Shown here: positions 26,836 through 40,437 of the stretch, one piece after another
Layout of the letters: each line of letters starts with the position of its first letter
Position numbering within the stretch: the stretch's first letter is position 1
NCBI GenBank assembly: GCA_019358945.1
Contig: JAHHIE010000003.1
Coordinates: 62,001-126,000, forward strand
DNA: 64,000 bases
Direction: 5' to 3'
Source of the DNA: Stenomitos rutilans HA7619-LM2
Lineage (GTDB): Bacteria; Cyanobacteriota; Cyanobacteriia; Leptolyngbyales; Leptolyngbyaceae
Position numbers and translations under genes: made by a program
Notes under the pieces: generated by a model
Database searches by the model: none
Told to the model about the DNA's origin: nothing
Seen by the model: the letters and a program-made list of their open reading frames with translations, nothing else

Positions 26836-27612
26836 TCACCAATCAGCGGAAGGGCGACGGGACGATCGACGAGGGCGACGGCTGAGTTCGATCGCGCCAC
26901 CTCGTTCCGGTGCTTCATAGCGGTCTCTTGAGGGTCTACCCCGCTCTGGCTCAACGCGATCGTTGTGATGGCGTGCATTGAGCCTCCGGCTCACATCCAC
27001 AAACGCCTCATGCAACAGCAAAGGATAGTCGCTTACCCAAAGATTGTGGTTGGGAATGTATACATCTGACGTTTTGCTAATGCGACCCAGATCGCCTCGA
27101 TTGGACATGACAACCATTTCGGCCACATCTCCAATCGCGATCGCCTGGTAATTGCGCTTCAGGGGCACTTGCAGCCGACTGGTGAAACCCGATTCATCGC
27201 CCACAACCAGGTTCAACCGTCGCTCACGGTTTTCTACAATCACCAGTTCCCCGTGTTCGTTCACGGTTTCCTCTTTGCCGATGAGTTCTTCTGTCACGTA
27301 CACATCGACAACCTCACCTTGCCAAAACCCACTATAGGGAAACTTGCGGCATTCAATATTTTTGAGGCTTGCCCAGAACACAGGCCCCCAGAGCCAATAC
27401 AGCCCGGTGATGATACCCAACAAGAAGCGAATAAACCCAAACCCATCACCTAAAAAACCACCCAGTAGCCAAATGACCGTCACGCCTACAATGGAAACCA
27501 GGAGCCGCAGCAGTAGCGCCGGAAATTTTCCCCAGCAGTAAACATACTGCGGCCCCGTAGCCACCGCAGGCACCAAATTTTCAAAGGTCTTGCGGGTAAG
27601 TGGAATGAGCAT
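26836..27612 (-). CDS. Conserved cyanobacterial membrane protein
   Basis: A 258-residue protein often labelled phosphate ABC transporter permease in cyanobacterial genomes, but no permease signature (EAA loop) is visible. Two membrane segments lie at about residues 32-50 and 60-80 (LLLRLLVSIVGVTVIWLLGG and FIRFLLGIITGLYWLWG). A soluble C-terminal part follows with GEVVDVYVTEELIG and a regular beta pattern. The last 45 residues are Arg-rich and disordered-looking. It is convergent with cobH, 40 bases away. The function is unknown. Confidence 0.75.
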   Translation of the reverse strand: MLIPLTRKTFENLVPAVATGPQYVYCWGKFPALLLRLLVSIVGVTVIWLLGGFLGDGFGFIRFLLGIITGLYWLWGPVFWASLKNIECRKFPYSGFWQGEVVDVYVTEELIGKEETVNEHGELVIVENRERRLNLVVGDESGFTSRLQVPLKRNYQAIAIGDVAEMVVMSNRGDLGRISKTSDVYIPNHNLWVSDYPLLLHEAFVDVSRRLNARHHNDRVEPERGRPSRDRYEAPERGGAIELSRRPRRSSRRPSADW

Positions 27613-28117
27613 AGTTTGACCAAGAGCCGCGATCGCAAACGAACTGCTACGAGCCTAGCATTAGACGCATAAATTCCACCCACTGTTGGGTAGTCGTTCA
27701 GTATGGCAGGTGATGTTCACCAATGCCCGTCATGCAGTATGACTGTAACCCCGCAACTACGGCTGGCGGCAAGATTTTTATCCACCAAAAGCGTGGATCT
27801 ACGGATACGAAGTGGGAGAGGACAGGTGAATGTTCATCTTAACTTGAGTACTCTATCGGATGGTTTTAGCAAGGGAAGGAAGCAGAATCGATATAGATCT
27901 GAGGAACGCAGTCGGAAAAGCTAAAGAGCTATAGGGGGCAACTATGCTCATTTGGCTTTTGCGTTTAGGAACGCGTCCTTACAGGCAGACTGCCTGACCC
28001 TGGGGGCTTATTAGGGTCAGGCAATTTTTTGATCATTTTTCGTTGTCCATCGTTCATTAAAGCAAGTTGTCCAATTTAAAGTGATTCTGTTCCAGATTAA
28101 AGTGGTTGACAGTAGCT
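27613..28117. other. Spacer of 505 bases with an orphan terminator
   Basis: The frame at 27703-27924 (plus) is not convincing as a gene. A strong terminator at 27991-28030 on the plus strand has no clear gene before it, so a small RNA from the 27900-28030 region is possible. Confidence 0.45.
27991..28030 (+). terminator. Strong Rho-independent terminator without a clear upstream gene
   Basis: Perfect 11-base arms TGCCTGACCCT and AGGGTCAGGCA around an 11-base loop are followed by a run of six T. Confidence 0.85.
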
Positions 28118-31081
28118 TTACTGCCCAGACGTTGGTGCTTCAACTGGGCGAATAATGGTGGCATCAGGAGTAACTTGGGGTTTAAAGATGGCTTGAAGGG
28201 CTTCTTCTAAAGTAGGTGCCATCACGATGCGATTCTCATAGGCGACAATCACTCGCACCAGGGTTGGTAAGCTGTTTTGAGTCGCTTCTAAATAAAGGGG
28301 TTCCACGTAGAGCAGCGATTGTTCGATCGGAATAATGAGCAAGTTACCCTGAACAGCGCGCGAACCTTGACGATTCCAGAGCGAAATTTGCTGAGAAATT
28401 ACAGGATCTTGGTTGATGCGCGCTTCGATTTGTTCTGGGCCGTAAATCAACCGCTCTTTGGGAAAGGTATAAAGCAACAATTTGCCGTAGTGCTCACCGT
28501 CCGATCGAGCCGCTAACCAGGCAATAAGATTTGTGCGTTGCCGAGGGGTGTAGGGCAACAGCAGAATAAACTCTTCAAACGGTACGGCAGGCAAGTTAGT
28601 GATCAAATAATACGGTTCAACTGGACGCGCCTCATCGCCATACACTTCATTCGGAATCTGCCACTGGTCTTCCCGGTTGTAAAACACCTGAGGATCGGTC
28701 ATGTGATAAACGAGCAACCGCTCCGATTGCAGTTTGAAGAAATCTACCGGATAGCGAAGGTGACTTCGTAAACCAGCAGGCATTGCCGTGAGCGGTTGAA
28801 AGAGGTTGGGAAAGACCTTTGACCAGGTAGCAATCATGGGATCACTGAGATCAGCGACGTAAAACGCCACCGAACCGTGATAGGCATCAATCACCACTTT
28901 GACTGAATTACGAATGTAATTGATGCCTTCAATGCCCGAATCTGAGTAGGGATAGCGATCGCTCGTGGTGTAGGCATCCACCATCCAATAAAGATAGTTT
29001 TGATCTTTCTCTACAGGGTTCTGTACCTTGGCTGCTATCAGATATGGATCGCTGTCGTAATGAAGGAACGGTGCAATGGCTCGAATGCGATCGTTAATAT
29101 TGCGGCGAAACAATACCTTTGTTTCTGGCAAAAAGTCCCGTGCGAACAAGATTCGCCAATCTCGCAAGTAGATGGCAAACAAATCCCGCCGCCACCAGGA
29201 GCCAATATTGATGCCACCCTGCCCCTCGTAAACGTGGTAAGCATTATCACTTCCATTGGGGTAGTCCAACTCCCGCGTTAAGGTGCGTGTCATGACATAG
29301 GTGTTAGCAATCTCGCCATAGTAGAGACGGGGTTGCCCAATGGGTATGCTGGCACGAATAGCAGGGCTGGCAGTCGTGAGTGCGCCTGTCTCTCCTTCCG
29401 TAATATCTTTGATAAAGTATTCTGGTAAGCCGCCTGCTGCAACGGTGTTGACGGGACTGAGCGTGAACCCATAGCCGTGGGTGTAAATCAAATGGCGGTT
29501 TACCCAGGTTTGAGCTTCTTGAGGTACGGCACTGTAATCCAACTCCCGTGCTGCAATAAGCACTTGTCGTTGCTCTGTAGGCACAGCAGGGGTGGCAGGC
29601 GATCGCGGTAGCACATTGGTTTGGAGGGTGTAGCGATCGAGGTCAGCGTTTGGAAAGCGGTAGTAGGGGCGAATCTGCTGCAATTGGCGATTGGTTTCTA
29701 GCAACGGTCGCTGATCCCACAAACGAATGTTGCGGATGGTTAGCGCGTTTGCCGCCATATCTTTTTCTGTGAGTTGCCCCTGGGGATTAAAGTTGCTGGC
29801 CTCAACCACATCTAGATCAAACGCCTGTCGGGTGTACGCAATCGTGCGTGCAATGAAGGGTCGTTCCCGCGCCAATTCGTTGGGTTGCACAACCAAATGC
29901 TGTACGACTTCGGGCATGATTAGACTGGCAACGATCAGCACACCAAACAGCCCTAAGCTTAGTTGGCTCCACTGCTGATGTGGTGCTTTCGGCTGCCAAA
30001 ACACGGTTTGCCACAAAAGGTAGCCTGCGATAGCTAAAGCCGAGAGGCTCAACCCAACGTAGAAAGGTAGTTGTACCGCCACATCGGTATAGCTAGCCCC
30101 AAAGGAGACGCCACGCGGAGAGTAGAGTAGTTCATAGCGCCCTAGCCAATAGCTCAACGCAATCGCTGCCATGAGTCCGCTACCCGTGCCACAGAGATGC
30201 CGTTGCTGAGCAGATGAAAAACCCGGAAAACTTCCCTGGCTGAGGCTATTACCCGATAGCAAATAGGTCAGCGCGATCGCAATAAACCCAAAAAGGAACA
30301 GTCCAAACAACCATTGCTCCAGCAATTCCCAGAAGGGTAAGGCAAAGAGGTAAAAGGCAATATCCCGCCCAAATAACGGATCGACCTTGTTGAACGTGGT
30401 GGGATGTAACCACTGCAAAACGACGGCCCATTGCTTAGAGAACAACCAACCCAGCAAAAGGCTCAGCGTCAGAGCGATCGCCCTTAACCAAACGCGAGGA
30501 TTAAGAAGCAGGGCGATCGTCACACCCAATACCCCACCAAGCCACCAAACATGACCGCTCAACTGCGTGCCAATCGAGGCCAATAATCTTAGGTTGACGT
30601 GAGAGGCAACAGTGGTGGAGAGTGTCGGCCCTGACTGCCAGTAGCTTAAGGCAAGCTGTCCGTAGTGCAGCAATAGTATGCCCACAACCAGACCCAGCGC
30701 AATGACTAAGGAAAGCAGCAACGGCAGACTTAAAGCAACGGTAGTTTGAAGGGGCAAGGCAAATGAACGCTGTAACCTCACGCTGTAAGGCGGCAAAAAA
30801 GCTGGCGAATTATGATTAAGGGGTTGCTCCTGGGTCGCCGCATCAGAAACATGAGTATATTTCAACCGTTGAGCGAGAGCCAGATTTCCCAGCCAATACA
30901 CTGCTGTACAAACCGACACAACGACCAGCACGATCGCTCGCACCTGGCACTTAAGCAGGAACACTGAAAGATAATTAACTTCCTGGAACCAGAGTATTTC
31001 CGCCCCAAAACGGGAGAGCAAATCGAAGCACAGCCCTACTCCCAGGAGTCCCGTAATCAGTTGAAACCGTTTCTGGATCAC
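28118..31081 (-). CDS. UPF0182 family large membrane protein
   Basis: A 987-residue member of UPF0182 (COG1615). The first 370 residues contain about seven to eight membrane segments, beginning [15 protein letters not shown]. The long C-terminal part is soluble and probably outside the cytoplasm, with family segments such as [48 protein letters not shown] and [22 protein letters not shown]. Length is typical for the family. The function is unknown. TMEM175 lies 97 bases upstream on the same strand. Confidence 0.95.
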
Positions 31082-31178
31082 AGACGTTCACTAGTCAATG
31101 AGGTAGGTGCTTTTTTAACAAAACCTTTAAACAATTCCGTCTAGTCCTTATCGAAACTAGATTGCGCCCTTGCTACCA

Positions 31179-31796
31179 CTAGGTCAATGCGTTCTCAAGG
31201 CGACGGTCAGGAATTAACCACATCACTGCAACCAAAACATACAACAAGCAAGCAGCCCACGGATTCAAAAACGAAAGCAGAATGGCTAGGGCATAAATAA
31301 CCACAGACACCTTACCCTTAAAATCTTGCCCAATGGCAGTTGCTAACGTGGAATCTTTACCATGAGTGGCAATGAGCATACGGCTAAGAATAAAGTATGC
31401 GATCGCTGAGAAGAGCAGCACTATGCCATAAAGAGCTACTGGCAAAGCAGCAAAGTGGTTCTCGCCAGTCCACCCAGTCACAAAGGGAATCAGTGATAAC
31501 CAAAAGAGCAAATGCAAGTTGGCCCACAAAACCTTGCCCTTCACTTGCTGTACCGCCTGAAACAGGTGATGGTGATTATTCCAATAGATACCTAAATAAA
31601 TAAAACTCAGAACATAGCTCAGAAAGATCGGCACTAGCGGCTTTAGCGCAGCCAAATTAGTTTCATGGGGCACTTTTAGCTCCAGCACCATGATGGTGAT
31701 GAGAATGGCAATGACACCATCGCTAAACGCTTCTAACCGACCTTTATCCATTTTGTCCAGGCTCCTTTTCTGCTGAATCAACGCAGGTTCGGACAT
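31179..31796 (-). CDS. TMEM175 family potassium channel (DUF1211)
   Basis: A 205-residue membrane protein with six predicted helices. The family signature R-x-x-x-FSDG is present as RLEAFSDGVIAI in the first helix, followed by the short extracellular loop and the conserved LSYVLSFIYLGIYWNNHHHL segment. Bacterial TMEM175 proteins form tetrameric K+-selective leak channels. It may be co-transcribed with the UPF0182 gene 97 bases downstream. The 223-base gap to the next upstream gene contains a pseudogene fragment. Confidence 0.92.
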   Translation of the reverse strand: MSEPALIQQKRSLDKMDKGRLEAFSDGVIAILITIMVLELKVPHETNLAALKPLVPIFLSYVLSFIYLGIYWNNHHHLFQAVQQVKGKVLWANLHLLFWLSLIPFVTGWTGENHFAALPVALYGIVLLFSAIAYFILSRMLIATHGKDSTLATAIGQDFKGKVSVVIYALAILLSFLNPWAACLLYVLVAVMWLIPDRRLENALT

Positions 31797-31861
31797 TTCT
31801 TAGATTACCGCATCCCCTACGATCGATAGCAAAGACGCTCCACCAATCCAACCACTTACGA

Positions 31862-32064
31862 GAACGGTTTAGACAGAATACTGGCCTAGCATTAGCAATC
31901 GCCCGCTAAATCATCGTAGACAAACACCAGGGCGCGATCGACATCAGCTCCATCCTCAACCAGGGCACAGAGTTTGTCACCACAGTACCGATTCAGCAAG
32001 AGGGTTCACGCAAGCCTATTCAAACGCTCCAGGCAAGCAGAAACGACCCGGCTATATAGGCAAA
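31862..32064 (+). pseudogene. Histidine kinase C-terminal fragment with in-frame stop
   Basis: The plus frame through 31883-31993 reads GLALAIAR, a TAA stop at 31907-31909, then IIVDKHQGAIDISSILNQG and TEFVTTVPI. This is the G2 box and end of a HATPase domain of a cyanobacterial hybrid kinase (compare TGLGLAI...IVVDKHQG...QGTEFVI.LP). Nothing upstream preserves the rest of the protein. The frame ends at a TAG at 32062-32064, inside the 3' end of the opposite DUF350 gene. It is a decayed remnant, not expressed protein. Confidence 0.75.
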
Positions 32065-32886
32065 TGCCTCGACCAGACCGGCTCCGAGATTAGGGGTCGC
32101 TTGATTAACAATTTCGTCTGAGATTTTTACCCCTGGCACCAGCACGACATCTGCAAGCCAGCGGATCAACGCCAGGGCAAGCAGGCAAAAGCCCAACACC
32201 ACAAGATATTGGGTAAAACTCTCAGCCCAGTTTTGAAAGTCTGGCGTAAACGCAACCCGCACAATATTGCCTGTGGCAATTAGCAATCCAGCCAGCGCCA
32301 CACCGGCTGCCGGATTGTTGCGTTTGCAGATCTCCCGAAACACGCTGTATTGGGTCACGCGAGGATAAAGGGCACTCACCAGCACCAACACACCCAGGCC
32401 CATGCACCAGCACACCAACCCGACAATCCAGGTGCCACTTTGACCACCGAGGGCCGCACTCAAAATTAAGCCATTGGCGATATGTACACCAGCCTCAGCA
32501 GAGGCCGCCCCTACATTCTGTTCCTCAACCACTTCACGGGCACAGTCACAGCGTCGGAGAATCAACCGATCGCCCACCCAGGCACCGACTAGCATCAGCA
32601 GAATTACGCTCGCACCATAGCTTGCCAGGTAGATTAAATGATCAAGCCACATAACGCGCTCTTTATCTAGCACACCCGCCAACGCCAGGATGATGCCAAA
32701 GTTGTAGCCCACCAACGCGATCGCGACTGCTGAATTGTCCCGCACAAACAGCTCAAGGTTCAGATCCAGACGTCGGAATATTTTTTGGTAGGCTAACTGC
32801 CCTAGCCAAAAGACACCAAACCCAATCACTAGCTCAGTGATTACTAATCCAATGCTAGGGATGCTGTTAAGCAGTACAGAGGTCAT
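32020..32886 (-). CDS. DUF350 family membrane protein (two DUF350 units)
   Basis: A 288-residue protein with about eight hydrophobic segments arranged as two repeats (ELVIGFGVFWLGQLAYQKI ... NSAVAIALVGYNFGIILALAG, and later KRNNPAAGVALAGLLIATGNIV). This N-x-A-x-x-I/V-x-x-x-G pattern is the DUF350 (YjfL) signature. DUF350 proteins co-occur with DUF4178, PspA-like proteins and aminopropyltransferase-like or glutathionylspermidine-synthase-like enzymes in many bacteria. Here it is the last gene of a four-gene minus-strand set. The exact role is unknown; membrane partner of the modifying enzymes is an inference. Confidence 0.85.
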   Translation of the reverse strand: MTSVLLNSIPSIGLVITELVIGFGVFWLGQLAYQKIFRRLDLNLELFVRDNSAVAIALVGYNFGIILALAGVLDKERVMWLDHLIYLASYGASVILLMLVGAWVGDRLILRRCDCAREVVEEQNVGAASAEAGVHIANGLILSAALGGQSGTWIVGLVCWCMGLGVLVLVSALYPRVTQYSVFREICKRNNPAAGVALAGLLIATGNIVRVAFTPDFQNWAESFTQYLVVLGFCLLALALIRWLADVVLVPGVKISDEIVNQATPNLGAGLVEAFAYIAGSFLLAWSV

Positions 32887-32960
32887 AGAATTTTTAGTTG
32901 TTGGTTGTTGGTTGTCAGCAGTCGGTGTCAGGGTTAGTGCAAACCTTAAAGCGTCATGCT

Positions 32961-33986
32961 TTAACTTTCTTTTCCCAATCGCTTGTATAGCCCAATCAGG
33001 GTATCTGCTAGCTGGTTATAAAAGAAGTAATCATAAGCGCCGATCGTGGTGACGGGTGCGCCTCCAAACTGTCGTTTGAACTGTGAGAATTTGGCGTAGT
33101 TATGCTTTGGGTTACGGGTGTAGCCGTAGAAATCGTAAAGGCTACAGCCTTTTGTTTTAGCGCGTTGCATCGCTGCCCAGTGAAGACCATAGCTTGCCAT
33201 GACGTGAGCATGACGATCAGTACGTCCACCGTACAGGTATGTGGCACGCTTTCCCCAATACACAATCAGGACGGTTACCAGTACTTCGTTTTGCCAAGTG
33301 GCCCAACCAATTTCTGCCATATTTGCGGCAAAAAGCGTCTGACAAAGATTAATAAAGAAGCTATAAGGCTCACCAAAAAACTGTTGTCGCTGTGCCGTTT
33401 CCCAGAACAGATTATAGAACACAGGAATGGCTTGGGCATCAGTTGTAAAGTGTGTGGTAACTCCATGCCGTTGGCTCAGCCGAATGTTGTATCGACCTTT
33501 AGGCTTCATGGCTGCCAGAATTTTAGCTATCGCGGGACATAGATCAATTAAGAGTGTTTCTGATGGTAAGAGTTCAACTGGGGCGCGTACAAAGCCATCA
33601 AGATCCATCAATTTTTCTAACCACAACGGCTCAAAACGGAGCGCGATCGCGCCTACTTTTTTTGCCAACACTCTTGCCTGTTCTACAAGCAGTTGCATTC
33701 CTGCTTGCTCAAACCCTGGTAAAAAGCAAGGAGCACCTGGAGCGACTAACATATTGGCATTATGTTCACAGGGATAGTAATAAAAACAGCAGCCTCCAAC
33801 TAAGTTATTTTCAGCAAAAAGACCATAGCGAAAGCTTTGATAGCCTTCTAATTGCTTAAAGTCTGCCCATGCCCATGCTTGCATAAAACATCCCACTGGT
33901 GACGCTTGCATAAAGGCATCCCACTGAGCGCGATCGTTCAACGTCAGTAGGCGGATCTCTAGTGTGGTTGAACGTTCAAAAAGCAC
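32961..33986 (-). CDS. FemAB-family aminoacyl transferase-like protein
   Basis: A 341-residue protein with the double GNAT-like fold of FemX/FemAB enzymes: N-terminal SPVGCFMQAWAWADFK, the central MKPKGRYNIRLSQRHGV segment (the KGRxxxR-type motif of the family), and C-terminal YLYGGRTDRHAHVMASYGLHWAAM with YDFYGYTRNPKHNYAKFSQFKRQFGG. FemAB proteins transfer an amino acid from aminoacyl-tRNA to the peptidoglycan stem peptide. Cyanobacterial peptidoglycan is not known for such bridges, so the acceptor may differ. It lies 40 bases after the aminopropyltransferase-like gene and 74 before DUF350, consistent with an operon. Confidence 0.88.
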   Translation of the reverse strand: MLFERSTTLEIRLLTLNDRAQWDAFMQASPVGCFMQAWAWADFKQLEGYQSFRYGLFAENNLVGGCCFYYYPCEHNANMLVAPGAPCFLPGFEQAGMQLLVEQARVLAKKVGAIALRFEPLWLEKLMDLDGFVRAPVELLPSETLLIDLCPAIAKILAAMKPKGRYNIRLSQRHGVTTHFTTDAQAIPVFYNLFWETAQRQQFFGEPYSFFINLCQTLFAANMAEIGWATWQNEVLVTVLIVYWGKRATYLYGGRTDRHAHVMASYGLHWAAMQRAKTKGCSLYDFYGYTRNPKHNYAKFSQFKRQFGGAPVTTIGAYDYFFYNQLADTLIGLYKRLGKES

Positions 33987-34026
33987 GGTTCATTGGGCTG
34001 GCGCTAAAGATTCAGTTAACATCGCT

Positions 34027-35508
34027 TTAATCATCGGAACGCTTGTAGAGATTCCAGAGCCAAATGCCCCCAATCATCATTGTCCAAAAGCCAAGCCAGC
34101 CAAAGTTCTCCTCGCCCGAATCGCCATCATAGCTAGAATAGCTTCCTGAAGAGCCAGAATACCCTTTAGCAAAGACAATATCCGGTGTTGCAATATTTGC
34201 CATCAAAATTGTGACAGAAAGGAGGGTGATCAGTTCGGCTGTGTGTTCTGAAATGTAAGTCACGGGTTGTCCTGTGCGCATTTTCTCTGCAAGTTGTTTG
34301 AGTTCACGCACAAGTTGAGGGGGTAATTCTTGCGCGCGTTCCAGCAAACTGGCTAAAAGCTGATTGAGGTTTACTTCTTCTAACAACGCTCTGAGATAAC
34401 TGAGCCATTCTGTCGTCATCTGCGGACTGTGATAACGATGCTGAACTGGCATGAGTTCAACGTTTTGGGCAGGCTGAAGGAGATTCTTTGCTTGATGATT
34501 CTTTGCTTGATGCAAGTGGCCTAGCCACATGGTTGCAATGGCATCTAATTGCAGTAAATCATCAGTGCCGATCGCACCAGTGCCAGGTTCTTCTAGATCT
34601 AAAAAATCGATAGGTTGCGGCTTTGGATCATCGATCGTCGTTGCCGCTAATTGCGATCGAGGATTCAACAAGTAGTAAAAAAGTTGCGGACAATCGAGCG
34701 TATGTATCTTTGGAACGTGGCGAAGCTGGGCGATCGCAGCAGGAATTTGCAAGGCGTGTTGCCAGTTATGGGAATGCAGGGCCTTTAGCTTTTCGGGTAG
34801 GTCAATGGTTTCGACTTCCGATCGCGTGATGGATCGTGCCGAGGCCAGAAAGAATCCCCAATCACCATAGCCGTGTTCTCGAAACGATGGAATGGCAACT
34901 TGTAGAGGTTTTGCCCATAGTCCAGCCGCTAATAAGGTTTGGTAGAGACACCAAAAACCCAACGTGCGCTGTTCGGGCGATACAGCGTTCGTACTCATGA
35001 TGCCACCAGGGTGGAGGGTACGCTGCACTTGCTGAAACCACTCGTAGCTGTAGATTTTGGTATCCTCTGATCGGCTCGGAAAGGTGAAATCGCAAATGAC
35101 CACGTGATAGCAAGCATCGGGCACGTTTGCCACAAACTCAAACGCTTCTTGGGTCAAAACGGTGAGACGATTCCCGCCTGAAGCTGTTTCCGATGGGCTG
35201 AGCAAACTGCCTTGATTGTAGGGTTGAAAGACGGTTCGACCGAGTTCTAGTACGTCCGCGTCGTAGTCCACCAGAGTTACATCGCTCACTTCATGAAACC
35301 GAAGGATATCACGGGCAGCCAAACCATCGCCACCACCACACAGGAGGACACGCAAAAGCGTATTTGGGAAACGCTGGACAGCAAGGGCGATCGCAGGCAC
35401 CACTAAGTATTCGTGATAAATCGCTTCATCTGCCGTGTCAAACTGCAAATCACCATTGATATAAAAGGCAAGACCGTTGGAGTGATGTTCGATGAAGAGA
35501 GAGGTCAT
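34027..35508 (-). CDS. Spermidine-synthase-like aminopropyltransferase with membrane tail
   Basis: A 493-residue protein. Residues 1-240 are a spermidine-synthase-like Rossmann domain: DEAIYHEYL at 28-36, GGGDG at 58-62 and VDYDADVLEL at 80-89 for decarboxylated SAM. The catalytic Asp140 begins the motif DFTFP, but known spermidine synthases have D-x-T-D-P; the second Asp that helps hold the amine is Phe here. A linker (with an exact 15-base tandem duplication giving HQAKN twice) leads to a C-terminal region with two hydrophobic segments and a Gly/Ser stretch between. The tail is not part of ordinary SpeE. A different amine acceptor is likely. Confidence 0.85.
   Translation of the reverse strand: MTSLFIEHHSNGLAFYINGDLQFDTADEAIYHEYLVVPAIALAVQRFPNTLLRVLLCGGGDGLAARDILRFHEVSDVTLVDYDADVLELGRTVFQPYNQGSLLSPSETASGGNRLTVLTQEAFEFVANVPDACYHVVICDFTFPSRSEDTKIYSYEWFQQVQRTLHPGGIMSTNAVSPEQRTLGFWCLYQTLLAAGLWAKPLQVAIPSFREHGYGDWGFFLASARSITRSEVETIDLPEKLKALHSHNWQHALQIPAAIAQLRHVPKIHTLDCPQLFYYLLNPRSQLAATTIDDPKPQPIDFLDLEEPGTGAIGTDDLLQLDAIATMWLGHLHQAKNHQAKNLLQPAQNVELMPVQHRYHSPQMTTEWLSYLRALLEEVNLNQLLASLLERAQELPPQLVRELKQLAEKMRTGQPVTYISEHTAELITLLSVTILMANIATPDIVFAKGYSGSSGSYSSYDGDSGEENFGWLGFWTMMIGGIWLWNLYKRSDD
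34483..34512 (-). repeat. Exact 15-base tandem duplication in the aminopropyltransferase-like gene
   Basis: ATTCTTTGCTTGATG occurs twice head to tail (plus-strand reading) and encodes HQAKN twice in the linker. It is a recent in-frame duplication. Confidence 0.9.
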
Positions 35509-35697
35509 TGAGGGAGAAGTTTTGAGTTTTAAGTTTTGAGTTAGAACATCAGTTTTTACAGTGAGTTCAGTGGGTGAAAGCGGGTTTTTGGTGAGTAGGC
35601 GTTATTCACCAAAAGCTGACTGTTGATAGCTGAGAAGGGCCATGGTTGTTTTATTTGAACCTTGCCGTCACGCCTCGCTCCTGACTGCTCACTCCAT

Positions 35698-36405
35698 TTA
35701 GATGCCGGAAAGCATTAAAAAGAAGCCGACGATCGTCACAATCCAGGCAATCAAGATTTCGCGACTTCGAGCGTCACGCTTTTTGAAGGCTGCATAGGCA
35801 GCCAGATCAACACTTCTTTCGGCGTTTTGTCCACTGAGAAAGGCCTGACGATCGCCAGACTGAATCTCGGTAAAGTCAGTGGGTTGCACCACACGGGTGG
35901 AGTAAACGGCTAGAGTACCGTCGCTCCAGGCTTCTAGGGCCAGGTTCCAGAGATGGGCACTATCCCAGTAGTCCCAGGTAATGCGGTGGCCGAGCGTGCC
36001 GTCTGATTCGTAGTCGCCCTCGGTTTGAGATTCAAACGCATAAACGCGATTGAAGAGTTGCAGTTCTGGGTACGGAGTCGCGTGCGATCGCATATCATTC
36101 CCCACAGTCGTCAGGCGATCGCGGGACGTTTTGGGATCAAGGAGTGTAGGATACCGCAGTTCTTCGGCGAGATACCAATGAACGAGAGTTTCTGGATTTT
36201 GCGGATCGACTTCACGCAGTAGATAGTATGCTTTGCTGGTACTGGATTTCAACAGCCACTCTTCGGTTTCATAGCTGTTGGCATCGGTATAGGTGCTGTA
36301 GTCCTGCACTACCCACTGGACACCGTGGTATTTTAGTTGGCTGCCTTCTCGCAAATCGCGTAGTTGGGTTTCAGATAGCCCTGCTGTCATGGAATGCTGT
36401 CTCAA
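35698..36405 (-). CDS. DUF4178 domain protein with C-terminal membrane anchor
   Basis: A 235-residue protein. The body matches DUF4178: LREGSQLKYHGVQWVVQDY near the start, a WYLAEEL segment, and ITWDYWDSAHLWNLALEAW with the Trp-rich end typical of the domain. The last 20 residues (LIAWIVTIVGFFLMLSGI) form a membrane anchor, placing the domain on the cytoplasmic face. DUF4178 genes commonly accompany DUF350 and aminopropyltransferase-like genes. It is the first gene of the set, 189 bases before the enzyme. A start at the Met six residues in (MTAGLSE) is equally possible. Confidence 0.85.
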   Translation of the reverse strand: MRQHSMTAGLSETQLRDLREGSQLKYHGVQWVVQDYSTYTDANSYETEEWLLKSSTSKAYYLLREVDPQNPETLVHWYLAEELRYPTLLDPKTSRDRLTTVGNDMRSHATPYPELQLFNRVYAFESQTEGDYESDGTLGHRITWDYWDSAHLWNLALEAWSDGTLAVYSTRVVQPTDFTEIQSGDRQAFLSGQNAERSVDLAAYAAFKKRDARSREILIAWIVTIVGFFLMLSGI

Positions 36406-37076
36406 GGAGAATCTAGAGTCTGAGTTCTAACTTAAGTTGCTCTGCTCAAAACGCAGCCCGCATCACTCAAAACTTTACTTAATCTGATATCTTTCACCAG
36501 TACAGCCGAATTACTTCCCTTCAGAGCCAATCGATAGGAGAAAAGGGCATGAAGTAGCAAAAACTCCAAGGACAGTAGAAACTATTCTGGTGCACGTCTA
36601 GGCCCCAGTCTACAGCCTGCTTGCTTTGCTGTCGACAGTCTACTAGCGCAATCACTCTACTAGCGCGATAGTCTGCCAGCATTGTTGGGATTGTTTCTCA
36701 AAGCTCAGGCATCCCTTGTCTCAACACAGCCCACTCAAACCCCCCGGTGCTCTCAGCCGTTTGCTTAATCACGATGATTCACAACGTTTTGATCTGTGGC
36801 AAGCTGGGCAGTTTATTGCGGCATCTCAACGCAGCCTTTGGTTTATCTTTTAGCAGACTAGTGCCGATCTCCGTAAAGACTGCAATCTGAAGTCCTTGCG
36901 TAGACGCTAGTAGGAACCTCCGTTCTGTTTAACCCGCACGCAAGCTGTATTAAGAAAACCAGTGTTTTTATACGTTTCAGTTATAGATCCCATCATCCTG
37001 TGAACTCTAGAAATAGAACCTAACCGCTTTGTAACCCAACAGGTTAAGGGTTGAGATAGTTTTAGGATGCAAGACA
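36406..37076. other. Spacer between divergent genes, about 670 bases
   Basis: No gene, tRNA or known regulatory RNA is recognised. It should carry the promoters for the DUF4178 set and for the histidine kinase. A repeated CTCTACTAGCGC-like phrase occurs near 36640-36665. Confidence 0.45.
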
Positions 37077-39329
37077 ATGAAAGCAAAGTTTGTATGTCCC
37101 TGTTGCTCCTACTCACTACTCTGCCAAGTGCAAGCTGGGAAGTTGGGCTGGTTCTGCATGCACTGCCACCAAGCGTTTCCTTACGGCATTGATGAACCTG
37201 CTCATACAACCCGAATGCAAACACCTCCTACGTCTCAAGAGCGTCCAACACCTCAAGAATCTCAAACAAACGAGGCAAGTTGGCAACGCTTGAAGCTAAT
37301 TACTGATCAGATTCGCGATCGCTTAGACGATGATCAAATCCTGCAAGTGATTGTCAGGGAGTTAAGCACAATGCCAACCATCATGAATTGTGGGGTCATC
37401 TTATATGATTCTAACCAAAAACGATGGAACGCCCGCTATACTTACGCAGCGCCATCAGCTTCAGAACAACGCTTTACTCAATCCATCCATGAGTATTTGG
37501 AAGCAAAGAGCCTTATTCACTTACAGCGTCTCTTCCTTTTGTGCCCACTCGGCCATAGTACGCATTCATCTAATCCATCTTCCTATCAACCGCTAGAAAT
37601 CCTTGTTTCATCGATCGTGATGGATAGCGCTCTGAATACTACTGGTCAGGCAATCGTCGGTATCCTTTGGTTAAGCAAATTAGCGAATTGTGAGACAGGC
37701 TTTAGTAGCACCGAAATGCACTTAGTAGAGCAAGTAACAACGCAATATACGATCGCTCTGCAACAACAGCACCTATTGCAAGCAGTTCAAACCCAAGTTG
37801 ACCAAGTTGAAAAACTCAACCAACTGAGAGATAGCTTTCTCAATACGGTCTCTCACGAACTGCGAACCCCCTTAGCTAACATGAAATTAGGGCTAGCCAT
37901 GTTGGAGATTGCACTCAACGGCGATGATCAGCAGCTGCATGGGCAACCCGCAAGTGCAGCTTATTATCTCAAACTTGTGCAAGATGCTTGTGAACAAGAA
38001 ATTCATCTCGTTAATGATCTCCTTTTGCTCCAGCAGCTTGAAGCTGGCATTTATCCACTTTTACCGAATGCCATCCTGGTACAAGATTGGTTGAGCGAAA
38101 TCGTCCAAAGCTTTGAGTCCAAAGCTCTAGAGCAGCGTCAGCACTTAGAGCTTCATTTTAGTGATGATCTGCCACGGCTCGTTTGTGATCTGATTCTCCT
38201 CGATCGTGTGCTGCGAGGGCTATTAACAAATGCGTGCAAATTTACTCCAGCCGATGGCAAAATTACAGTATCGGCGCAAGTGGTCTTGGGTACCATCCAA
38301 ATTAGCGTCGTTAACTCAGGTCTTGAAATTCCTGCAACCGAGCTTGAGCATGTGTTTGACAAGTTTTATCGGGTGCCCATAAACGACTCCTGGCAGCATC
38401 AAGGCACAGGATTGGGACTAGCCCTCATTAAAGGGTTGATGACTCATTTAGGTGGTTCCATTCGGGTCAGCAGCACCAATCATCAGGTTTGCTTTGTTGT
38501 GGAGTTATCCCAGACCCAATGCGTACGTGAGGTGGCTGAGCACGATCGCTTGATGGGTTACGTGGCTTACTACCTCAGCCGTGGCAAAACCATCATCAGC
38601 CCTACCTATGGAGCGTTAACCTTTACTGGCCTTGTGTACAACTACTGGGGTTACCATCAAGACTTTTTAAGCTTTTGGCAACAACTTCAGCAACGCAGAG
38701 ATTTTGGTTATCTTTATCTTGAAAAAGATGCCTTTTCCTTTCATCAGTTTCTAGACGGTAACTATACCGTCAGTAAGTGTGCTCGCTGCTGCTTACCCAT
38801 CCCAAATCCAGCCGGAAAAGCCTACACAACACCCAGTTGTACCCGTTGCGACGACCCGTTGCTCAATGAGCTGATTGCCCCGCTAGGCGCGATCGCGATC
38901 GAGGCCAGCGTTCAGCCCCCATTGACGTATATCATCGTGGTCGGACAATTACCCCCTCACGTAGAAGAGCTTCAGCAATGGTTTAAGCTCAATGGGTTTG
39001 AAGTCTCGTTTGTAGCCCATCCTGATGAAATGACGTTAGATTTTCTACCAGAGGCAGTAGAGTTAATCCTACTGCTTGAAGACCTCTCAGAATCGCAGGC
39101 TCAAAGTTGGGTGCAAACCCTGCGTCGCTACACTCAGCTTCGACATACACCCATCATTGCACTCAGTGCTAAAGCGGGCTGTGGACAAACCTGGATGGAT
39201 GGATTCTTGAGCCTTGAGGATTACCTGATTACCCCGATGAATGGTAATCATCTAGCTCACCATCTACAGCAGTTGACTGAGCGAGGCCAAGTCACTAACG
39301 CACCCTGTTGGTTTCCCATTTATGGCTGA
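37077..39329 (+). CDS. Zinc-ribbon histidine kinase with degenerate receiver
   Basis: A 750-residue cytoplasmic sensor kinase. It opens with a zinc-ribbon-like motif (Cys7, Cys10, Cys27, Cys30). A GAF-like domain (about 75-235) follows, then HisKA with His260 in VSHELRTPLANMK and HATPase_c with Asn386 (LLTNACKF) and the GTGLGLALI box. After the kinase come about 90 uncharacterised residues (490-560), a second Cys pair set (Cys568, Cys571, Cys588, Cys591), and a receiver-like domain (615-735) in which the acidic pocket and the phospho-acceptor Asp are not preserved. The signal may be redox or metal; this is inferred from the cysteines. Confidence 0.85.
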   Translation: MKAKFVCPCCSYSLLCQVQAGKLGWFCMHCHQAFPYGIDEPAHTTRMQTPPTSQERPTPQESQTNEASWQRLKLITDQIRDRLDDDQILQVIVRELSTMPTIMNCGVILYDSNQKRWNARYTYAAPSASEQRFTQSIHEYLEAKSLIHLQRLFLLCPLGHSTHSSNPSSYQPLEILVSSIVMDSALNTTGQAIVGILWLSKLANCETGFSSTEMHLVEQVTTQYTIALQQQHLLQAVQTQVDQVEKLNQLRDSFLNTVSHELRTPLANMKLGLAMLEIALNGDDQQLHGQPASAAYYLKLVQDACEQEIHLVNDLLLLQQLEAGIYPLLPNAILVQDWLSEIVQSFESKALEQRQHLELHFSDDLPRLVCDLILLDRVLRGLLTNACKFTPADGKITVSAQVVLGTIQISVVNSGLEIPATELEHVFDKFYRVPINDSWQHQGTGLGLALIKGLMTHLGGSIRVSSTNHQVCFVVELSQTQCVREVAEHDRLMGYVAYYLSRGKTIISPTYGALTFTGLVYNYWGYHQDFLSFWQQLQQRRDFGYLYLEKDAFSFHQFLDGNYTVSKCARCCLPIPNPAGKAYTTPSCTRCDDPLLNELIAPLGAIAIEASVQPPLTYIIVVGQLPPHVEELQQWFKLNGFEVSFVAHPDEMTLDFLPEAVELILLLEDLSESQAQSWVQTLRRYTQLRHTPIIALSAKAGCGQTWMDGFLSLEDYLITPMNGNHLAHHLQQLTERGQVTNAPCWFPIYG

Positions 39330-39436
39330 CGTCCAGCATGAGCTAAAACGGTACTCAGTGCTTTAGAGTTGCAAGCTAAGAGGTAACGGCTTCACACAGT
39401 TTGGCTAAGCGTCACTAGAGAGAACACATCTACAGA

Positions 39437-40060
39437 CTACGAGACTCTAGCCCGTGAAGACGGTTTCATCCGCGAAGCTTGTCCCCGCAAAACTTGCTCG
39501 CGCAGAAAGCGATCGGCAATTTTAGAGCGCTGTTGCCAATCTGATTTAAGTGGATTATCAAACCGTCCTGGGCTAAGTAGACTGGTGATTTCTTCCCACA
39601 GCGAGCGATCGGCTGTATGCAAGTCAACTAGCATCAAGCCTACTCCCAGCAAGAGCAGCGTAACCCCTAGCACAAATAATCCCAGCGAGAGGGGCACGAG
39701 CCATTCCAAGTTGACTAACGCCCTCACGGCAAGCGCCAAGGTACTGGCGATCGCACACAGTAGCGCATAAGCATTCGCTAGCACACCATAGCGAATGACT
39801 TGATAGCGATACTGAAGCTGGCGCAGAAACTTCTTCGCTTGCAAAAGCCGACTCGTTGAGCGATCGCCTCTCGAAGTATCGCTCCGACCCTCGTTGCTAA
39901 TGCTCAGCAGCTCAACACACTGTCGATTGGCCGCATGCAACTGTTCCTCAAGAGCCGTTTGGCGCAGATTGATGCGATTTAGCAGCAGCGTACAAGCGAA
40001 CGCCATTAACACCGAGTTTAGAATTAGCTGTATCAACTGGGTTGTTTGCTCAACGCTCAT
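39437..40060 (-). CDS. DUF2721 family membrane protein
   Basis: A 207-residue protein starting at MSVEQTTQLIQLILNSVLM; the frame extends 23 codons upstream but this N-terminus fits DUF2721 better. Three membrane segments: LIQLILNSVLMAFACTLLL at the N-terminus, YALLCAIASTLALAVRALV in the middle, and a long hydrophobic stretch (VPLSLGLFVLGVTLLLLGVG). The loop between the first two is charged and predicted helical. The function is unknown. Confidence 0.75.
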   Translation of the reverse strand: MSVEQTTQLIQLILNSVLMAFACTLLLNRINLRQTALEEQLHAANRQCVELLSISNEGRSDTSRGDRSTSRLLQAKKFLRQLQYRYQVIRYGVLANAYALLCAIASTLALAVRALVNLEWLVPLSLGLFVLGVTLLLLGVGLMLVDLHTADRSLWEEITSLLSPGRFDNPLKSDWQQRSKIADRFLREQVLRGQASRMKPSSRARVS

Positions 40061-40437
40061 TGGGTTCTCCCTCAGACGTGCAGGCAGTGTAGGCAAATGA
40101 TACGGGTTGTTGACCCAGACCGCAATCAATAGTCATCAATATACCAGATTATTTAGTACATTTGAACCATAAATTGTCGTTTGTGAAGCCAAACAGCACA
40201 TTGTGTCGCTGCACTAGGTAAGCGCCAGAGTCGCAAGAGCTATGCCAAGTCATGGTCCTGCGATCGCCTGTCTCTAATATCAACCTGTTGAGGGTGATTG
40301 CGCTTGCGGAGTTGAACGATACCATAACCCAAAAACACTACCAACCAAGACAACCTTGAGCAAAATGGCACGTCTAGTCAACTGGTCATTCTGCTTTACG
40401 GGTATATATACCTATACCTCTCAGAGAACACATTTCC
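40061..40437. other. Spacer of 377 bases
   Basis: It lies upstream of the DUF2721 gene and downstream of treY. No gene is seen. The stretch CGGGTATATATACCTATACC at 40398-40417 is a short self-complementary AT-rich sequence just after the treY stop and could act in 3'-end formation. Confidence 0.4.

Follow-up and report, generated by a model that had tools for sequence, protein, structure and literature searches.

A conserved pair of SpeE-like and FemAB-like genes with DUF4178 and DUF350 membrane partners in cyanobacteria and other bacteria

Why should a gene for a FemAB-type aminoacyl transferase lie between genes for a spermidine synthase-like (SpeE-like) enzyme and a DUF350 membrane protein? 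The question is raised by a locus of Stenomitos rutilans HA7619-LM2 (Cyanobacteriota), which we analysed in a window of 64,000 nucleotides (contig JAHHIE010000003.1, positions 62,001 to 126,000). Four open reading frames (ORFs) on the minus strand encode, in order, a DUF4178 protein of 235 residues (35698-36405; PF13785, 44.9 bits), a SpeE-like protein of aminopropyltransferase type of 493 residues (34027-35508; PF01564, Spermine_synth, 69.9 bits), a FemAB-family transferase of 341 residues (32961-33986; PF02388, 112.5 bits) and a double-DUF350 membrane protein of 288 residues (32020-32886; PF03994, 140.7 bits in two stretches). All four Pfam matches lie above their cut-offs. The gene order and the intergenic gaps of 189, 40 and 74 bases, when recomputed, agree with the original prediction, which had been made from the DNA letters alone. 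Searches of the same genome returned one PF01564, one FemAB and one DUF4178 protein, all within this operon; the FemAB search gave three matching stretches, all inside ORF 32961-33986, the sole FemAB ORF found. Their fixed order and their joint occurrence across genomes show the four genes to be one conserved functional unit. Its core is the SpeE-like and FemAB-like pair, with the DUF4178 and DUF350 proteins as membrane partners and a short SpeD-family pyruvoyl decarboxylase as a frequent further member.

The linkage is clearest among 291 genomes drawn from the class of the window organism. This SpeE subfamily is present in 28 of them (best match E 7e-94 or better; next match 3e-35) and this FemAB in 28 (393–803 bits), and the two sets of genomes are identical. 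Three further FemAB matches score 21–24 bits, two of them at 22–23% identity; the third, in a Pseudanabaena-group genome that is 76% complete (G284:C481:3093-3173), covers 27 residues at 67% identity and may represent either a remnant or a fragment left at the end of a contig. In 26 of the 28 genomes FemAB is the next gene after SpeE; in one of the other two, a 76% complete assembly with SpeE in pieces (G256), it is found on a different contig. DUF4178 precedes SpeE in 28/28 loci (truncated in one, where the contig ends), and DUF350 adjoins FemAB downstream in 16/28. Of nine loci picked by hand for a table of gaps, measured from the longest ORF, five show a 4-base overlap between SpeE and FemAB. 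Genes outside the operon vary between lineages, and thus it is selection or joint transfer, rather than general synteny, that preserves the SpeE–FemAB order. In three Pseudanabaena-group loci (L049, L050 and L056) an LD-carboxypeptidase-family gene, of which one copy was scanned, replaces DUF350 behind FemAB.

The pair extends well beyond the class. Searching named genomes with the FemAB alignment yielded 72 loci, of which 61 were strong (255 bits or more); some come from the 28 class genomes (L081 from G084, L106 from G256), and the two counts are not independent. At least 2 kilobases (kb) of upstream sequence were available for 55 of the 61. In 54 of the 55 a SpeE gene precedes FemAB on the same strand, at a distance of at most 201 bases in 53 loci and 745 bases in L125. 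The sole exception, L106, comes from the fragmented genome G256. A FemAB gene adjacent only in this strain would have refuted the original prediction; the pairing in 26/28 class genomes and 54/55 wider loci shows that this is not the case. SpeE–FemAB pairs span Cyanobacteriota, Armatimonadota, Geomonas, Methylomirabilota, Rokubacteria and Elusimicrobia, and all four genes stand together in Geomonas (L118), Methylomirabilota (L125), Rokubacteria (L126) and Elusimicrobia (L128). In Melainabacteria, Obscuribacterales and relatives a SpeD-like gene follows FemAB at six loci (L121, L123, L130, L131, L135 and L141); SpeE lies upstream in three of them and the remaining three have less than 1.4 kb upstream. 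Weaker FemAB relatives, mostly from Amesbacteria, had no partner gene at any of 10 usable loci. In these candidate-phylum bacteria (L142-L152, mostly Amesbacteria) the FemAB genes are of another kind and mostly occur as two in tandem.

What might such a unit do? We tentatively favour a unit at the membrane that modifies an unusual amine through two enzymes, an aminopropyltransferase whose acceptor has changed and a transferase of the aminoacyl-tRNA type. The SpeD-family decarboxylase would make decarboxylated S-adenosylmethionine (AdoMet), which the membrane-anchored SpeE-like enzyme would use to aminopropylate an acceptor that is not putrescine. An amine, probably the one just formed, would next be acylated by the FemAB-like enzyme, with aminoacyl-tRNA supplying the amino acid. 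The acceptor would be membrane-associated, and is probably not the usual lysine of lipid II or of the uridine diphosphate-N-acetylmuramic acid (UDP-MurNAc)-pentapeptide. Both enzyme activities and their order, the sharing of one acceptor and the parts assigned to DUF4178 and DUF350 are our inferences.

The FemAB-family protein bears on the acceptor. Its profile matches solved relatives, the lipid II:glycine glycyltransferase 6snr (E 2e-35) and FemX (E 2e-21), and the family retains the FemABX fold, the Phe-Lys motif and a FemX-like length. Two alignments were used, one of 25 of the 28 class sequences and one of the window protein with 39 of the 61 strong loci. In the latter Glu206 (E206) is invariant in 40/40 sequences, and FemX and 6snr have Arg at that column, which we take to be the column of MurM R215 (the solved relatives aligned were FemX and 6snr). 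Among 20 rows of the weaker relatives the column holds 10 His, 6 Pro, 2 Met, 1 Phe and 1 gap. The role of the FemX/MurM site in binding the peptidoglycan precursor follows PMC12632259. A match of FemAB to a homing endonuclease model, at E 0.037, was set aside together with the anti-phage match of the SpeE-like protein given below.

An alternative that we regard as unlikely is that the unit modifies peptidoglycan, with amines of polyamine type and amino acids being attached to lipid II or to stem peptides. Going by their names, the solved relatives of FemAB that were found have peptidoglycan precursors as substrates, and the LD-carboxypeptidase-family gene behind FemAB in three loci would suit such a target. 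PMC10628300 describes polyamines (cadaverine or putrescine) on D-Glu of the Negativicutes wall, and a title cited in PMC2600650 refers to cyanelle precursors with N-acetylputrescine. The invariant Glu in place of Arg argues against this alternative, as does the rarity of the family (28/291 class genomes). Moreover, the amine of Negativicutes sits on a carboxyl group, a chemistry that FemAB enzymes are not known to perform. The original prediction of a membrane pathway attaching amines or amino acids to an envelope or protein target still gives the best reading; an ordinary peptidoglycan target is so far unsupported, given the residue change and the rarity.

The SpeE-like protein departs from its relatives at the putative acceptor site. 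The best NCBIfam model is the polyamine aminopropyltransferase PRK03612, at 197 bits and below its 472-bit cut-off, and the predicted model matches a solved aminopropyltransferase (Foldseek E 7e-19). The protein comprises an N-terminal enzyme domain (Spermine_synth match at residues 30-214 of 493), a helical linker, a C-terminal membrane helix, the sequence PDIVFAKG and a Ser/Gly-rich tail; hydropathy revealed no N-terminal hydrophobic segment or seven-transmembrane (7TM) domain. Of the two C-terminal membrane segments that had been proposed, one is clear by hydropathy and the second, a helix predicted at 469-489, is plausible, not proved. The protein also matches the PADLOC anti-phage model mad2 (46 bits, E 6e-13); SpeE models score far higher, and we attribute the match to the shared methyltransferase fold rather than to a defence role.

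In a quick tree of the SpeE domain, made without bootstrap, the 54 FemAB-linked SpeEs form a single clade (Shimodaira–Hasegawa-like approximate likelihood ratio test, SH-aLRT, 99), with a program warning of long branches, the biosynthetic outgroup among them. The nearest named relatives of the window protein in this tree mark its genome as that of a Leptolyngbya-like cyanobacterium. Active sites were compared for the window protein and 53 loci, a score limit excluding L099 (partial SpeE, 121 bits), against hand-picked sets of 13 long-type and 14 biosynthetic SpeEs, one of the latter (L157) clustering with the long type in the tree; a separate SpeE alignment covers 24 of the 28 class sequences. 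All 54 FemAB-linked SpeEs retain the GGGDG motif, D61 and a catalytic-type Asp, D140. Presumably D61 and D140 contact the aminopropyl amine, as in spermidine synthases. In contrast, the second acid of the DxxDP motif is found in 0/54, compared with 13/13 long-type and 14/14 biosynthetic SpeEs (26 Asp and 1 Glu among the 27), and N174 is present in 54/54 where all 27 others have Gln. From structures of spermidine synthase we take both positions to belong to the amine acceptor pocket.

These changes bear on a further alternative, which we judge unlikely: that the SpeE-like enzyme makes a free polyamine, that FemAB aminoacylates it, and that the soluble aminoacyl-polyamines stabilise membranes. 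Such small-molecule conjugates would fit a genome in which the SpeE-like protein is the only PF01564 protein found, the presence of a SpeD-like partner, and an acid in the FemAB acceptor region that suits a cation. A soluble product is harder to reconcile with the loss of two conserved residues in all 54 SpeEs, and with an enzyme that has a membrane helix of its own and two membrane partners.

A donor is suggested by the SpeD-like partner. Its gene stands beside the operon, or one gene from it, in 10/28 loci, and because the nucleotide site of SpeE is also retained, decarboxylated AdoMet is the donor we would expect. The one SpeD-family match of the window genome lies on another contig (G000:C70), whereas its counterpart in close relatives adjoins the operon. 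The pyruvoyl Ser, within a Glu-Ser cleavage site, and the catalytic Cys are retained in 24/24 aligned SpeD-like proteins, including that of the window genome (L076:6938-7297). SpeD relatives acting on ornithine or arginine exist (PMC10407285), and the SpeD-like protein may not be an AdoMet decarboxylase. The neighbours of this gene were also recorded. In the window genome it lies behind a DUF1611 gene and overlaps it by 4 bases, and the pair (L076:5898-7297) recurs in L036, L037, L038 and L040, two DUF1611 copies having been scanned and the rest assigned by similarity. L041 has a gene for a CHAD-domain protein in this position, and a similar protein occurs in L042.

Several observations weigh against a four-gene membrane unit that uses decarboxylated AdoMet. 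The 189-base gap 5' of SpeE is space enough for a promoter. FemAB of G088 is on the same contig as SpeE and 1.4 Mb away from it. DUF350 is non-adjacent in 12/28 loci, though present elsewhere in the genome in 10/10 of those searched, and neither DUF4178 nor DUF350 was found beside the pair in the Melainabacteria loci or in two Armatimonadota loci with SpeE. Thus DUF4178 and DUF350 are not obligatory neighbours of SpeE–FemAB, and from the loci where they are missing we place the core of the unit in the two enzymes. Lastly, SpeD had no Pfam match in any of the 15 Pseudanabaena-group genomes with the operon, and our own SpeD profile, at E up to 10, gave a single 12-bit match in the same genomes, which is not credible. 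Either another decarboxylase serves in this group or the donor differs.

A different donor is the substance of a third alternative, in which the SpeE-like enzyme would use AdoMet itself, by 3-amino-3-carboxypropyl transfer, or another nucleotide. It would account for the 15 Pseudanabaena-group genomes, in which other PF01564 matches reach at most 24 bits. The SpeD-like genes by the operon in 10/28 loci and the invariance of D61 and D140, contacts of the aminopropyl amine in spermidine synthases, make it distinctly unlikely.

The tail of the SpeE-like protein suggests a particular acceptor. A PDxxFAKG-like motif follows the hydrophobic stretch in 48/54 FemAB-linked SpeEs, mostly then with Ser/Gly/His-rich sequence; the window copy lies at 34162-34185 (SpeE residues 442-449). 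The motif resembles a signal peptidase cleavage site, and it is conceivable that the SpeE tail might be released. Together with a membrane peptide ending in Gly-Lys in the long-SpeE operons described below, it leads us to consider, as a highly doubtful variant, that a lysine within a protein serves as acceptor, located either in the membrane tail of the unit itself or in a small peptide linked to it, and would be aminopropylated and then aminoacylated there. Hypusine and the polyamine-lysines of silaffins are precedents for modified lysines, and if this variant were true, a modified lysine at the membrane would be their bacterial analogue.

A last explanation, that FemAB is a passenger near SpeE only through shared regulation or joint transfer, could cite the location of FemAB elsewhere in 2/28 genomes and the scattered phyla among which the operon may move as a block, but is very improbable given the identical sets of genomes, SpeE upstream in 54/55 loci across deep divergence, and the retention of both genes where FemAB is unlinked.

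The modification of an unusual amine at the membrane thus remains the reading we favour, tentatively. The FemAB family has a recognisable chemistry, the aminoacyl-tRNA-dependent acylation of an amine, and a conserved member of it beside an aminopropyltransferase relative narrows the chemistry to products detectable by mass spectrometry. SpeE D140 and FemAB E206 are the residues to mutate. If true, the reading would add a new use of aminoacyl-tRNA outside protein synthesis.

We know of no function for DUF350 or DUF4178. The DUF4178 protein of the window is of a divergent subtype. Its model (mean predicted local distance difference test score, pLDDT, 85) has a beta-rich body and a helix at 200-232, and hydropathy indicates one C-terminal hydrophobic segment, in agreement with the membrane anchor foreseen in the original prediction. 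No convincing sequence relative was found in the PDB (best E 0.23), and a Foldseek search with the model gave no match at E <= 0.001. A likeness to domain I of elongation factor P (EF-P) was rejected, since the best VIA Z of 5.8, over 62 residues with a root mean square deviation of 2.6, is within the range that the tool calls common. DUF4178 occurs in 59/291 class genomes with one match each, 32 at 107–155 bits and 27 at 45–62 bits; the latter 27 are the FemAB-operon genomes minus G272, where the gene is cut by a contig end. The DUF350 protein is borne out as a double-DUF350 membrane protein by PF03994 in two stretches and by seven separable hydrophobic segments in a 19-residue scan; the family is termed 8TM in PMC11237479.

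A promoter and terminator scan gave 7 promoter-like sites (shuffled mean 5.8) and 8 terminator-like sites (shuffled mean 5.5), which is no evidence in either direction. No PspA or CesT_Tir match was found among the 9 proteins scanned at 26836-40129 around the operon, a search confined to the window genome. No conserved gene for a small peptide was found in the FemAB operons: of the 15 best-conserved short ORFs, those that could be placed are antisense to or within known genes. A TMEM175-type gene (31179-31796, minus strand) comes after the operon and is also present in the near relative L036; BLAST gave no match for it in the other 26 FemAB-type loci fetched.

Comparison with known enzymes shows where members of the unit agree and differ. 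The FemAB-like protein shares the Pfam FemAB domain, length and Phe-Lys motif with the FemABX transferases (FemX, FemA and MurM), but has the invariant Glu in place of Arg at one site and lies in an operon with a SpeE-like enzyme. The SpeE-like protein keeps the fold and nucleotide-binding residues of spermidine synthases, whereas the second acid of DxxDP and the conserved Gln are replaced and a C-terminal extension carries a membrane helix. Relative to the SpeD-type pyruvoyl decarboxylases of PMC10407285, the class form is a divergent short type with the pyruvoyl Ser and the Cys kept.

A second kind of DUF4178 operon is present in the class. In 13 picked cyanobacterial loci with an N-terminally extended SpeE (L063-L075), gene calls place DUF4178 beside SpeE in 10 and a short SpeD in 5, and FemAB was not found beside the long SpeE in any of the 13. 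In contrast to the FemAB operons, the SpeE acids are canonical in 13/13, and class-wide this kind of DUF4178 scores 107–155 bits, against 45–62 bits for the kind in the FemAB operons. In one long SpeE that was scanned, a protein of 552 residues, the SpeE domain spans 314-491, and by this long N-terminal extension it may resemble the published 7TM-fused spermidine synthase. Upstream of the long SpeE lies a conserved peptide, about 76 residues long and hydrophobic towards its N-terminus (L064-L068 and L070-L075; for example L065:8601-8837, minus strand); all 11 copies found in the 13 loci have Gly-Lys as their last two residues, and two copies scanned had no Pfam match. Further upstream, in 11/13 loci, is a protein of about 330 residues (k1; L065:8873-9862, minus strand, and relatives), of which none of three scanned copies rose above a Pfam cut-off.

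The SpeE–FemAB pairing was not found in the open-licence literature searched on DUF4178, DUF350, FemAB with spermidine and related terms. An amidoligase study by Iyer and co-workers in 2009 may touch on such operons. The closest published relative is the PspA/CesT_Tir operon group of Ravi et al. 2024 (PMC11237479), which brings together SpeE-7TM, DUF350 and DUF4178 and confirms the statement in the original prediction that DUF350, DUF4178 and spermidine synthase-like genes recur jointly, with PspA in other bacteria. The window shares with it the spermidine synthase-like, DUF350 and DUF4178 proteins in one operon, and a theme of polyamines at the membrane. It differs in that the window SpeE lacks the N-terminal 7TM fusion and has a C-terminal membrane tail instead, in that no CesT_Tir-PspA dyad occurs among the 9 proteins scanned, and in the addition of FemAB, a term with 0 occurrences in the main text of that paper. 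The wider DUF350/DUF4178/SpeE operon is already published, and what appears new here, against the open-licence literature searched, is the SpeE–FemAB pair.

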